A stretch of 64,000 nucleotides of DNA from Cyanobium sp. N.Huapi 1H5 (lineage in GTDB: Bacteria; Cyanobacteriota; Cyanobacteriia; PCC-6307; Cyanobiaceae), in the NCBI RefSeq assembly GCF_024345535.1, contig NZ_JAGQBH010000002.1, positions 62,001 through 126,000 of the forward strand, given 5' to 3'. The notes beneath the pieces are model-generated. The model was not told the DNA's origin. It saw only the letters and a list, made by a program, of their open reading frames with translations, and did not search any database. The number at the start of each line of letters is the position of its first letter. Position 1 is the first letter of the stretch. Shown here one piece after another: positions 35,997 through 40,307 of the stretch. The position numbers were made by a program, and so were the translations under genes.

Positions 35997-36122
35997 GTCG
36001 CCCGGCGGCCGCTTCAGGGCCCCGCCCCGGCGGCCGTGATCGGTTGTCATGGCTGGCGGGGGCGTGGGCTGGGAAGGAGGGCTCGGAAAAAGGCATCGGA
36101 AGAAGGCCTCGGGTGTGAGTGA

Positions 36123-36506
36123 ATGGAGCAACCCCGTGGCGTCCCCGTGCCCCGAACCGAGCACTGGCAGTGCATCAGCGGCTGCGGTTCCTGCTGCCGT
36201 CTCGATCCGGCCCTGCGGGGCGACGCGATCGAGGCCCTCGACCCCGACCAGCAGGAGGTTTACTTCGCGATGGTGGGGGAGGACGGCTGGTGCCGCCATT
36301 TCGACACCGGTTCACGCCGCTGCCGCATCTATGCGGAACGACCCGACTTCTGCCGGGTGGATCAGCTGGTGGCGCTGTTCGGCCAGCCCGGCGACGACCC
36401 CGATGCCCTGGCCATCGCCTCCTGCCGGCAGCAGATCCGCGCCGAGCTGGGCGGACGCCATCCGGTGATGCGCCGTTTCCTTCGGACGATCCGCCAGCCC
36501 TCATGA
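36123..36506 (+). CDS. YkgJ-family cysteine-cluster protein
   Basis: 127 residues. The cysteine pattern ([13 protein letters not shown], then [19 protein letters not shown] and a late SCRQQ) is that of the YkgJ/UPF0153 family, thought to bind zinc or an iron-sulfur cluster. Function unknown. Its stop overlaps the start of the first UPF0016 gene by 4 bases, suggesting co-expression with the metal transporters. Confidence 0.87.
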
Positions 36507-36841
36507 GCAGCACCCCCGAAACCCCAGCCCCCTCGAGCTGGATCACGGTGTTCCTGAGCACCGCCACCACCGTCTTCCTGGCCGAACTCGGCGACAAGAC
36601 CCAGCTCGCCGCCCTGCTGCTGTCGGCCCAGTCGGGCCGGCCGGTGGTTGTGTTCGTGGGCGCCTCGCTGGCCCTGATCTGCTCCAGCCTGGTGGGGGTG
36701 CTGCTGGGGCGCTGGCTGTCCACCGTCATGCCCCCCCACCAGCTGGAGCGGGCCGCGGGGATCCTGATGGTCGCCCTGGGGCTGTGGCTGGGCCGTCAGG
36801 CGGTGCTGCACCTGGCGCCGCTCCACCTCCTCAACACCTGA
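36503..36841 (+). CDS. UPF0016/GDT1 half-size cation transporter (first)
   Basis: 112 residues with three membrane segments and one copy of the family motif, FLAELGDKTQLA. Full-length UPF0016 proteins (Synechocystis Mnx, plant PAM71, human TMEM165) carry two such motifs and move manganese or calcium. Half-size pairs are known in cyanobacteria as hemi manganese exchangers that must pair. The partner is the next gene, 19 bases on. Confidence 0.9.
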   Translation: MSSTPETPAPSSWITVFLSTATTVFLAELGDKTQLAALLLSAQSGRPVVVFVGASLALICSSLVGVLLGRWLSTVMPPHQLERAAGILMVALGLWLGRQAVLHLAPLHLLNT

Positions 36842-36860
36842 ATCCGTCCCCCGCCGCCCC

Positions 36861-37202
36861 ATGCCCTTCGCCCTGCTCGCCTCCACCTTCGCCACCGTCT
36901 TCCTGGCGGAGCTCGGCGACAAGACCCAGCTGGCCATCGTCAGCATCAGCGGCACCTCCAACCGGCCCGGGGCGGTGTTTGCCGGCAGCGCCTTCGCCCT
37001 GGTGCTCGCCAGCCTGGTGGGGGCGGCGGCGGGGGGCTCCCTCTCCAGCGTCATCCCCACCGATGGACTGCAGCTGGCGGCCTCCGCCGGCTTCCTGATC
37101 ATCGGCACCCGCCTGATCCTGCGCTCCGGCGCGGACGGCGGCGAGGCACCCGCCGCGACCACCGAGGCCGCTGGCGAGGATGCCGAGACCCCCGCTCCTT
37201 AG
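36861..37202 (+). CDS. UPF0016/GDT1 half-size cation transporter (second)
   Basis: 113 residues, again with one motif, FLAELGDKTQLAIV, and three membrane segments, then an acidic, alanine/glutamate-rich tail after about residue 92. It is expected to form a heterodimer with the preceding protein for manganese export from the cytoplasm or import into thylakoids. The tail is not part of the usual domain. Confidence 0.9.
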   Translation: MPFALLASTFATVFLAELGDKTQLAIVSISGTSNRPGAVFAGSAFALVLASLVGAAAGGSLSSVIPTDGLQLAASAGFLIIGTRLILRSGADGGEAPAATTEAAGEDAETPAP

Positions 37203-37333: not shown

Positions 37334-39649
37334 ATGTCCCATCCGATGAAGTTCACGGTCGCCGATCTGCTCGACCACCTCTCCACGACCGATGCGGTGG
37401 CCCTGGCCAAGCTGGAGAAGTCGCTGGGCCTGACCACCAAGACCTGCAAGCAGCAGTTGCGCATCGGTCTGGATGCCCTGCTGCGGCTGGGGCTGGTGGA
37501 AGAGGACGGGGAAGGCCTCCGCGCCCGTGAGACTCCCGAGCTGATCCCGGCCCGGCTGCGCTGCTCGAGCAAGGGCTTCTGCTTCGCTCTGCGGGAGGAC
37601 GGCGGAGAGGACATCTACATCCGTGACCACCAGCTCAACCACGCCTGGAACGGCGATCGGGTCCTGGTGAAGATCACCCGCGAGGGCGGCCGCCGCCGCT
37701 CGCCGGAGGGGGGCGTGCAGTGCATCCTCGAGCGCCAGACCCCCAGCCTGCTGGCCCAGGTCGAGCGGCAGGAGGGTCAACTGGTCGCCGTCCCCCTCGA
37801 CGACAGGTTGCTCACCTCCGTCGTCCTGCCCGAAGAGGATGCGGTCCACCTCGATCCCGCCGAGGAGGCGGTGGTGGAGGTGAAGATCGATCGCTTCCCC
37901 GTGGCCCAGTTCGGTCCGGCCGGCCACGTCGCCCGCAGCCTGCCGGTGCACGGCGGGGAAGCAGCCGACACCGACCTGCTGCTGGCCAAGCATCGCCTGC
38001 AGGAGCGTCCGGCCTCCCCCCGCGCCACCCTGAAGCAACCCGCCGCCAAGCGCACCGACCTGACGGCCCTGCCCACCCTGATCCTGGAGGCCTGGGAGGG
38101 CGGCGAGGCCCCGGTGCTGCCCGCCATCTCTCTGGAGGAGCGTGAAGGCGGCTGGCGGCTGTGGGTGCACAGTCCCGCCGTGGCCGAGCGCATCGGCATG
38201 GGCAACAGCCTCGACACCTGGCTGCGGGACCAGGGCGAGGCGATCTGCCTCGGACGGCGCTGGCTGCCCCTGCTGCCCCCGGCCCTCGCCAAAGCCTGCG
38301 GCTTCCGTCCCGGCGACAGCCAGGCGGCGGTGTCGGTGGCCCTGGAGCTGGACGCCGAGGGGGCCCTCGAGCACTTCCGCTTCAGCCTGAGCCAGATCAG
38401 CCCCGATGCCCGGGTGGACCGGGCCGCGATGCAGGCCCTGGCCGAGCGCAAGCCCAAGGCCCGCACCGTCCCCGCTGCCCTCAAGGCCCTCAAGGATCAT
38501 CTGCCCCTGCTGGAGCAGCTGGTCCAGCTGAGTGGCCTACTGCGCCAGCGGCGCCTCGCGGCTGGCTCGATCGATCTCGACCTGCCGATGCCCGCCATCG
38601 ACAGCCTCGGCGACCTGCGGGTGCCCGCCCCGGATGCGGCCCTGCAGGGCTGGCTGGTGGAGCTGCCGGCCGAGGATCCGGTGGCGATCCTGCGGGAGGC
38701 GGTGCTGGTGGCCCAGCGGGCCCTGGGCCGCCACCTGCTGGCCCTGGAGTTGCCCGCCCTGTTCGCCCTCAATCCGGCGGCGGAGGCCACCGACATCAAC
38801 GACGTCGCCAAGGCGGCCCTCGCCCTCGACATCCCGATGGAGCTCAGTGCCGACGGCAACGCCAGCGCCGCCGAGCTCGCCGCCGTCTTCGCCGCCACCG
38901 ATCGCGGCCGGCCCCTGCAGCAGCAGCTGCGCGATGCCCTCCGGCCGGTGCAGCTGGCGGCCGAAGCCGGCCCCCACGCGGTGGCCGGTGAGGAGACCGC
39001 CGTGGCCCCCTGGTGCTGTCCGGCCCTCCACTACGCCGACATCTGGAACCAGCAGCTCCTGGTCAGCCTTCTGGTGGACGGCAAGGACCGGCCCAGCGTG
39101 CGCCACAAGGTGAGCACCGACCTGGCCAGCGACGCCTGCCACGGCAGCACCGACTGGCCCCTGCTGACCCCCGGCCAGCTGGCCCCCTACCAGCAGGGCC
39201 TGGAGCACGGCCTGGCCCAGCGCCTCAACGGCCGCTGCCGCTTCCTGCAGGAGCTCCAGGCCGATGTGCTCGCCCTGGCCCAGGCCCGCCACACCGAGCC
39301 CCTGGTCGGCCAGACCCTGCCCGGGGTGATCAGCGGCGTGCAGAGCTACGGCTTCTTCGTCGAGGTTCCCCCCTCCCAGGTGGAGGGACTGGTGCACGTC
39401 AGCTCCCTCAAGGACGACTGGTACGAGTACCGCTCCCGCCAGAACCGCCTGGTGGGGCGCAAGTTCCGTCGCACCTACATGGTCGGCGACGGGGTCGACG
39501 TGGAGATCCAGAAGGTGGACGCCCTGCGCCACCAGATCGACCTGGCGGTGCTCCAGCCCGAGGACTTCGAGCGGGTGGAGGAAGGGCCCGCCGATGGCAC
39601 GGCGAACGACGGCTTCGATGAAGCCAACGGCGCCGCTGACGAGGGCTGA
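37334..39649 (+). CDS. RNase II/R-family (RNB) protein with degenerate active site
   Basis: 771 residues; ATG 37346 (MKFTVADLL) is an equally good start. Order: N-terminal helix-turn-helix-like region, cold-shock-like domain (RLRCSSKGFCFAL, DIYIRDHQLNHAWNGDRVLV), RNB region, and a C-terminal S1 domain from about 657 (GVISGVQSYGFFVEVPPSQVEGLVHVSSL is split here only for description: GVISGVQSYGFF then EGLVHVSSL). Active RNase II/R enzymes have four aspartates in a D-x5-D-x-D-D cluster. Around residue 259-275, where it should be, the chain reads APVLPAISLEEREGG, with no such aspartates. It probably binds RNA without exonuclease activity. Confidence 0.87.
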   Translation: MSHPMKFTVADLLDHLSTTDAVALAKLEKSLGLTTKTCKQQLRIGLDALLRLGLVEEDGEGLRARETPELIPARLRCSSKGFCFALREDGGEDIYIRDHQLNHAWNGDRVLVKITREGGRRRSPEGGVQCILERQTPSLLAQVERQEGQLVAVPLDDRLLTSVVLPEEDAVHLDPAEEAVVEVKIDRFPVAQFGPAGHVARSLPVHGGEAADTDLLLAKHRLQERPASPRATLKQPAAKRTDLTALPTLILEAWEGGEAPVLPAISLEEREGGWRLWVHSPAVAERIGMGNSLDTWLRDQGEAICLGRRWLPLLPPALAKACGFRPGDSQAAVSVALELDAEGALEHFRFSLSQISPDARVDRAAMQALAERKPKARTVPAALKALKDHLPLLEQLVQLSGLLRQRRLAAGSIDLDLPMPAIDSLGDLRVPAPDAALQGWLVELPAEDPVAILREAVLVAQRALGRHLLALELPALFALNPAAEATDINDVAKAALALDIPMELSADGNASAAELAAVFAATDRGRPLQQQLRDALRPVQLAAEAGPHAVAGEETAVAPWCCPALHYADIWNQQLLVSLLVDGKDRPSVRHKVSTDLASDACHGSTDWPLLTPGQLAPYQQGLEHGLAQRLNGRCRFLQELQADVLALAQARHTEPLVGQTLPGVISGVQSYGFFVEVPPSQVEGLVHVSSLKDDWYEYRSRQNRLVGRKFRRTYMVGDGVDVEIQKVDALRHQIDLAVLQPEDFERVEEGPADGTANDGFDEANGAADEG

Positions 39650-39656
39650 TCCGCCG

Positions 39657-40307
39657 ATGGCGCCCTCCTCGCTCCCCGTGGTGCTGGCGGTGTCCGGCGC
39701 CTCCGCCCAGCCCCTGGCCGAGCGGGCCCTGCAGCTGCTGCTCGAGGAGGACCTGCCGGTCGAGATGGTCACCAGCCGGGGGGCGATCGGCGTCTGGCAG
39801 GCGGAGATGGGCCTGCGGGTGCCGTCCGAGCCCGACGCCCAGGAGCGCTTCTGGCGGGAACGCACCGGCTGCAGCTCCGGCCGGCTGCACTGCCACCGCT
39901 GGAACGACCAGGCCGCCGCCATCGCCAGCGGCAGCTACCTCACCCGCGGCATGGTCATCCTGCCGGCCAGCATGGGCACCGTCGGCCGGATCGCCTCCGG
40001 TGTGGCCCTGGATCTGATCGAACGGGCGGCGGATGTGCACCTCAAGGAGGGACGGCCCCTGGTGATCGCGCCGCGGGAGCTGCCCTGGAACCTGGTGCAC
40101 CTGCGCAACCTCACCCGTCTGGCCGAGGCCGGGGCCCGCATCGCCCCCCCGGTTCCGGCCTGGTACCACCAGCCCACCACGATCGGTGAGATGGTGGACT
40201 TCCTGGTGATCCGCGTCTTCGACACCCTCGGCCTCCAGCTCGGCTCCCTGCAGCGCTGGCAGGGGCCCGTGGGCCGGCCAGCACCGGACCAAGTCTCCAC
40301 CCCCTGA
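39657..40307 (+). CDS. ubiX: Flavin prenyltransferase UbiX
   Basis: 216 residues from ATG 39657. LAVSGASAQPLAERAL near the N terminus is the flavin-binding start, and SGSYLTRGMVILPASMGTVGRIASG with RPLVIAPRELPWNLVHLRNL are the family signatures. It makes prenylated FMN, the cofactor of UbiD decarboxylases, here most likely for plastoquinone synthesis. Seven bases after the RNB gene. Confidence 0.93.
   Translation: MAPSSLPVVLAVSGASAQPLAERALQLLLEEDLPVEMVTSRGAIGVWQAEMGLRVPSEPDAQERFWRERTGCSSGRLHCHRWNDQAAAIASGSYLTRGMVILPASMGTVGRIASGVALDLIERAADVHLKEGRPLVIAPRELPWNLVHLRNLTRLAEAGARIAPPVPAWYHQPTTIGEMVDFLVIRVFDTLGLQLGSLQRWQGPVGRPAPDQVSTP

Follow-up and report, generated by a model that had tools for sequence, protein, structure and literature searches.

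Cyanobacterial genomes encode Zam, a member of an RNase R-related RNB clade that Thomas et al. found in every cyanobacterial genome they searched (PMC9145284). Its active sites are degenerate and it was classed as a non-functional nuclease, with the purified protein of Synechococcus PCC 7002 showing neither nuclease activity nor RNA binding, subject to the caveat of aggregation (PMC9145284). The CSD1 of the PCC 7002 protein contains two redox-active cysteines, C73 and C79, and the gel mobility of purified Zam changes with redox (PMC9145284). Strains of PCC 7002 in which zam was deleted or these cysteines were replaced by serine have pigment and photosystem balance phenotypes, and the authors favour a redox-controlled interaction between Zam and RNase E (PMC9145284). 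Related losses are described in fungi. The four acidic sites of yeast Ssd1 are occupied by Ser704, Val709, Glu711, and Phe712 (PMC8934651), and fungal Dis3L2 is reported to have lost its active site at least four times with its cold-shock domains kept (PMC8097288).

We analysed a stretch of 64,000 nucleotides from Cyanobium sp. N.Huapi 1H5 (GCF_024345535.1, NZ_JAGQBH010000002.1, positions 62,001-126,000), referred to below as the window. A preliminary description had singled out in it an RNase II/R-like protein without catalytic aspartates. The open reading frame concerned starts with ATG at 37334 on the plus strand, ends with a stop codon at 39649, and encodes 771 amino acids. This protein is Zam, the known non-nuclease RNB protein of cyanobacteria. 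Since Zam was described as such before (Thomas et al. 2022, PMC9145284), the main point was already known, and the odd gene is a widespread pseudoenzyme and not a local oddity. What we add is that the catalytic site has decayed to differing degrees between lineages, with the RNA-binding parts nearly unchanged. The locus comprises the following features, with dN/dS given against the Zam locus L004:

37334..39649, plus strand: zam gene, 771 amino acids, RNase R-type pseudonuclease (open reading frame, Pfam and NCBIfam matches; groups with 251 other Zam)
37334..37528, plus strand: N-terminal helical (HTH-like) region, residues 1-65 (predicted helices H9-15, H24-30, and H36-52)
37553..37720, plus strand: CSD1 (OB_RNB, residues 74-129; PF08206, 64.9 bits; dN/dS 0.021 over residues 70-135)
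37562..37582, plus strand: cysteine pair C77 and C83 in RCSSKGFCFA (motif and spacing match C73/C79 of PCC 7002)
38051..39073, plus strand: RNB domain, residues 240-580, catalytic residues lost (PF00773, 143.6 bits; predicted fold like RNase R)
38087..38122, plus strand: former metal-site loop, residues 252-263 (E252, P260, L262, and P263 at the four aspartate columns of the alignment)
39008..39031, plus strand: former arginine loop, residues 559-566 (PWCCPALH, aligned with SPIRRY in active paralogues)
39302..39550, plus strand: S1 domain, residues 657-739 (PF00575, 41.1 bits; dN/dS 0.012 over residues 655-741)
39581..39646, plus strand: disordered acidic C-terminal tail, residues 750-771 (pLDDT < 50)
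39660..40307, plus strand: downstream flavoprotein gene, often beside zam (PF02441, 118 bits)

The layout is of the RNase R type. OB_RNB, CSD2, RNB, and S1 all score above their Pfam cut-offs in this single protein, with RNB far above its cut-off of 29.3 bits and the best stretch for CSD2 at residues 92-133; the same Pfam search of the protein returned no match above cut-off for residues 1-65. The best curated profile is TIGR02063 (RNase R) at 206.5 bits, as opposed to only 25.1 bits for TIGR02062. This score misses the RNase R equivalog cut-off of 597.85 bits, which no protein exceeded across 194 genomes of the phylum. AlphaFold2, supplied with an alignment of 113 Zam, predicted a confident model (pLDDT 90.8, pTM 0.88) in which the final 22 residues are the only stretch below a pLDDT of 50. 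The top solved structures returned by Foldseek for this model were those of RNase R (8cdu, 5xgu, and 7did). With VIA-align, it superimposed on M. genitalium RNase R (7dcy/7did) over 611-612 residues (Z 36.4, rmsd 3.3-3.4) and on yeast Ssd1 (7am1) over 605 residues (Z 30.7, rmsd 4.3).

To locate the catalytic columns we used the genome's own intact paralogue L001, which carries IDDADTRDIDD and SPIRRY. The four metal-ligand columns correspond to E252, P260, L262, and P263 in window Zam, none of them aspartate, and as E252 remains a glutamate, one of the four is still acidic. The absence of catalytic aspartates noted earlier is thus borne out column by column. The string that the preliminary description gave as the replacement of the metal site, APVLPAISLEEREGG, spans residues 259-273 and does hold three of the columns, with the fourth (E252) just before it. 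The column of the R500-type arginine is L565, followed by H566; R500 is presumably E. coli RNase II numbering. Among cyanobacterial RNB paralogues used as controls, all 16 have D, D/E, D, D at the metal columns and all 16 have RRY; a 17th control stretch (L121) was dropped after giving no open reading frame match. We considered whether misalignment had masked aspartates lying elsewhere, as the preliminary description allowed, and ruled this out because the 16 controls align cleanly and window Zam contains no instance of the spaced motif D-x5-[DE]-x-[DE]-[DE]. Exonuclease loss is well supported for window Zam, which, judging by the aligned residues and the predicted model, most likely has no 3'-5' exonuclease activity. 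The preliminary description had offered loss of exonuclease function in the lineage as one possibility. The loss stands, given the missing aspartates, the missing R500-type arginine, and the published classification of the family as non-nuclease (PMC9145284), but the lineage was drawn too narrowly, as none of 252 Zam retains four acids.

Statements in print bear on whether Zam could still be a nuclease, acting through other residues or a remodelled site. For the RNase E link, Thomas et al. depend on taking the Anabaena protein studied by Zhou et al. to be Zam (PMC9145284). A review presents Alr1240 of Anabaena as an RNase II that is active on unstructured RNA and binds RNase E, and its gene table puts alr1240 second, just as it does sll1910, whose inactivation gave acetazolamide resistance (PMC10989914). 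If Alr1240 lacks the aspartates, its identity with Zam and its activity as an RNase II cannot both hold in any simple way. Our comparison exposes this conflict: a protein called Zam, of a family without catalytic acids, is elsewhere described as an active RNase II. Contamination with E. coli RNase II or mis-assignment of Alr1240 would explain it. Retained activity would also fit the purifying selection on RNB (dN/dS 0.13), the invariance of part of the dead site within the window's family, and the glutamates E252, E268, E269, and E271, which lie in or directly after the former metal loop. Against it stand the absent spaced acidic motif, the loss of the R500-type arginine together with its neighbour, and the inactivity of the purified PCC 7002 protein (PMC9145284), and we consider a surviving nuclease very improbable.

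The preliminary description had raised the question of a second, intact RNB gene, and the genome has one outside the window, on contig C5 at 261316-263355. It encodes the 679-residue L001, for which OB_RNB and CSD2 Pfam matches are absent. The RNB identity of L001 is 0.58-0.61 to L117/L118, 0.47-0.53 to six rows sampled at class level (L119, L120, L122, L123, L124, and L128), 0.40-0.41 to L129-L132, and, despite their origin in the window's own family of genomes, just 0.35-0.36 to L125-L127. We infer that exonuclease work is left to this Rnb paralogue, in which the catalytic signature is seen and whose activity would follow by analogy with Synechocystis Rnb.

We quantified constraint on the gene by comparing window Zam with its relatives. 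Against L004, dN/dS was 0.105 over the whole gene, 0.021 in CSD1, 0.012 in S1, 0.13 in RNB, and 0.36 in the 22-codon dead loop; against the more distant L005 it was 0.041 in CSD1, 0.095 in S1, 0.377 in RNB, and 0.555 in the loop. Whether measured by dN or by dN/dS, the rate of change in CSD1 and S1 is therefore 4 to 11 times lower than in RNB. Across 3000 random pairs of the 252 Zam, mean identity was 0.77 for CSD1, 0.75 for S1, 0.42 for RNB, and 0.27 for the dead loop. The cold-shock and S1 parts are kept, as first described, both by their Pfam matches and by this very strong conservation. The whole-gene dN/dS of 0.105 against L004 ruled out a pseudogene. Given this purifying selection and the presence of P260 and L262 in all 24 members examined from the window's family, the replaced site is not noise.

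The same data bear on whether Zam is a functionless relic in decay. Its RNB domain has diverged strongly, with identity to Zam from beyond the family at a median of 0.26; this depth is not special to the window's family, since the RNB of L249 reaches only 0.31. A search with window Zam found a match in 118 of 244 genomes of the phylum, of which 114 belong to the window's class (24 to its family) and four, as listed, are weak matches outside it. A divergent Zam query matched 284 of the 291 genomes of the class, though some of these matches may be to Rnb. Of the seven class genomes without a match (G309, G317, G281, G245, G298, G430, and G451) we checked the first four. Each of the four has no Zam match at E 1e-5 and a single RNB gene with an intact Rnb-type site, which lacks the CSD1 cysteine motif, implying that Zam is dispensable in some lineages. 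Zam seems absent from these four genomes, of which G309 and G317 belong to family f55 and G309 is a single-contig genome. In G241 (L115), zam is split into two open reading frames in different frames. Plastids are reported to be without Zam. Although the absences from G309, G317, G281, and G245, the split gene, and the RNB divergence are what a relic would produce, the reading frame in the window is open, CSD1 and S1 are held at a dN/dS of 0.01-0.02, matches are widespread in the class, and deletion has a phenotype in PCC 7002 (PMC9145284). A relic is already contradicted by the selection data and we regard it as scarcely credible.

These considerations leave a non-catalytic protein, as the preliminary description had suggested, whose role it took to be RNA binding. 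The first half of that proposal holds. The second is plausible from the sequence conservation of CSD1 and S1, but the purified PCC 7002 protein gave a negative result in the RNA-binding test of Thomas et al., with aggregation as a caveat (PMC9145284). We consider it quite probable that Zam is a redox-gated, non-catalytic adaptor of RNA decay, descended from RNase R, with the fold kept and the metal residues lost. Its working parts would be S1 and CSD1 with the C77/C83 pair. Following Thomas et al., a disulfide in the RNA-contact loop of CSD1 may close and open with the photosynthetic redox state, and this could switch the docking of Zam on RNA, on RNase E, or on both. RNB would survive as a scaffold whose former active site, in the window's family, carries an invariant hydrophobic and proline replacement. 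The purifying selection on RNB (dN/dS 0.13) speaks against this part of the reading, since a domain that is a mere relic would not need it.

Zam may instead act mainly as a protein-protein regulator of RNase E and not as an RNA binder. Such a role agrees with the redox-dependent interaction that Thomas et al. propose and with their negative RNA-binding result (PMC9145284). However, K80, F82, and F84, residues of the RNA-contact type in the CSD1 loop (RCSSKGFCFA), are the same in 112, 101, and 112 of 113 Zam, respectively, and the RNase E data may concern Rnb instead. We judge a mainly protein-binding role unlikely, though it deserves serious weight. For the redox-gated adaptor, 244 of 252 Zam keep both cysteines of the putative switch. 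The exceptions show that it is not universal: seven Zam (L116, L214-L218, and L250) have lost both cysteines and L260 has lost the second. The seven come from genome family f18, and their catalytic loop is also shortened.

To trace the loss of the aspartates across Zam, we gathered 276 sequences: 113 evenly drawn, 80 from named contigs, and batches of 23 and 60, leaving 252 after removal of 24 identical cores. The 80 named loci were the best 80 of at least 512 confirmed relatives, with L036, a Zam that keeps three aspartates, as the reference for both confirmation and ranking, and the 60 of the last batch were hand-picked among the matches listed. Shares of aspartate patterns in the 252 are consequently inflated. 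We dropped L121 (no open reading frame match), L115 (the split gene), and L256, L257, L258, and L275 (other RNB proteins). In this non-random set, aspartate occurs at sites 201, 207, 209, and 210 in 57, 6, 111, and 94 of the 252 Zam, respectively, and at none of the four in 130; no Zam has four acids, whether or not glutamate is counted. D201, D209, and D210 without D207 are found in 52 of the 252, also from the non-random set, and named three-aspartate carriers include Nodosilinea, Leptolyngbya, Phormidesmis, Oculatella, and Vasconcelosia records. D207, D209, and D210 occur together in one Zam (L317), and D207 alone in five (L195, L201, L202, L203, and L205), which are Okeania, Trichodesmium, and Hydrocoleum records. 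Among the evenly drawn 113, 97 have no aspartate at these sites, five have D209 and D210, five D209 only, three have three aspartates, two D201 only, and one D201 and D209. We had considered that D207 was lost only once, before the other three, in every Zam, and dropped this scheme given that L317 and the five D207-only proteins keep D207.

We then placed these patterns on trees. A FastTree phylogeny built with the aspartate columns left out and rooted on three Rnb rows put the 252 Zam in one group apart from the outgroup (topology only). Scoring each site as D or not-D, parsimony required a minimum of 12, 3, 11, and 4 changes at sites 201, 207, 209, and 210, with D at the root for 201, 209, and 210 and not-D for 207, where glutamate in two of the three outgroup rows was scored not-D. 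With regain forbidden, 34, 16, 18, and 8 losses were required. On a quick IQ-TREE tree of 47 representatives of the 252, which has long branches, odd composition flagged in several rows including the window's, and a number of open forks, the minimum changes were 3, 1, 9, and 3. L036, its sole three-aspartate row, is nested in groups of 6, 22, 37, and 43 rows with SH-aLRT values of 97, 96, 91, and 98, away from the three root rows. We take these root rows, as well as L249, to be Gloeobacter-like. Rare aspartates could equally score as gains in such a set, and parsimony counts alone cannot separate loss from gain. Since Zam descends from RNase R and chance rebuilding of an IDGxxxxxIDDA motif seems unlikely, we read the changes as losses, which suggests piecemeal, repeated decay of the site across cyanobacterial Zam, much like that of fungal Ssd1.

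A more far-reaching history would have early cyanobacteria possess a bifunctional RNase R with a redox-switched CSD1, from which the nuclease was lost many times independently. Leptolyngbya- and Nodosilinea-type lineages would now be one aspartate short, and in the window's family the pocket would have been rebuilt as a conserved W/P/L and PW plug that took on a new role, structural or in binding. The single three-aspartate protein in the supported tree lowers the odds of this history, and we hold it tentatively, at somewhat less than an even chance.

The dead site of the window's family bears a signature of its own. Of 24 family Zam examined, all have P260 and L262, 22 have P263, and three have E252; at the four sites 21 are entirely without acids, and the remaining three, including the window's, have one glutamate. 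W254, P260, L262, P559, and W560 are invariant in all 24, although the family shows full conservation at just 22 of the 361 RNB columns. The other 228 Zam do not have the resulting W-x5-P-x-L replacement as their consensus. At thirteen RNB positions the family is invariant for a residue found in less than 10% elsewhere, and five of these positions belong to the two loops that once formed the active site (p 0.0003 or 0.002 by Fisher test, depending on loop borders, in a post hoc comparison of 24 related sequences). With invariant residues concentrated in these loops, the dead site in this family is probably not simply drifting, and the W/P/L and PW replacement may plug the pocket, form a packing core, or provide a new binding site. 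Separately, C130 (37721-37723), at the end of CSD1, is invariant in 24 of 24 family members and present in less than 10% elsewhere; it could take part in redox chemistry.

The surroundings of zam also recur. We take the downstream flavoprotein to be UbiX-like. A UbiX-like open reading frame accompanies zam on the same strand at 15 of 23 other family loci and, beyond the family, at 118 of 181, in most cases no more than 600 bases downstream; because the flanks differ and can be short, some may have been missed. A limited literature search found no paper treating zam and ubiX together. Just upstream of zam, at 36119-37202 of the window, is a tandem pair of GDT1 cation/proton antiporter genes, with GDT1 matches beside zam at 23 of 23 other family loci and at 0 of 181 outside the family.

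This known pseudoenzyme merits follow-up for its graded decay, for the signature in the window's family, and for the conflict over Alr1240, and the series of Zam with zero, one, two, or three of the four aspartates offers material for testing the order of nuclease loss. Placed beside the described systems, window Zam shares with Zam of Synechocystis PCC 6803 (sll1910) and Synechococcus PCC 7002 (A1543) the OB/CSD-RNB-S1 layout, the degenerate acidic site, two CSD1 cysteines six residues apart, and a second RNB gene in the genome. It differs in that its family is without the RRY arginines and has the invariant W-x5-P-x-L, the likeness being one of family and published description. Cyanobacterial Rnb (the Synechocystis Sll1290 type, here L001) has the RNB domain in common with window Zam, but all 16 controls of this type keep D, D/E, D, D as well as RRY, whereas window Zam has neither. 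RNase R of E. coli (5xgu), B. subtilis (8cdu), and M. genitalium (7did) has the same fold and domain order but keeps the metal ligands and the R500-type arginine; window Zam has lost both and scores under the equivalog cut-off. Yeast Ssd1 (7am1) and the other fungal pseudonucleases derived from Dis3L2 resemble Zam in their RNase II fold, lost acidic site, and conserved cold-shock domains. In Ssd1, insertions in CSD1 and S1 block the RNA funnel. When the predicted structure of window Zam is inspected by segment, no long insertion is conspicuous in its OB and S1 segments. Finally, Ssd1 has its origin in Dis3L2, whereas Zam is nearest to bacterial RNase R and carries a redox cysteine pair.
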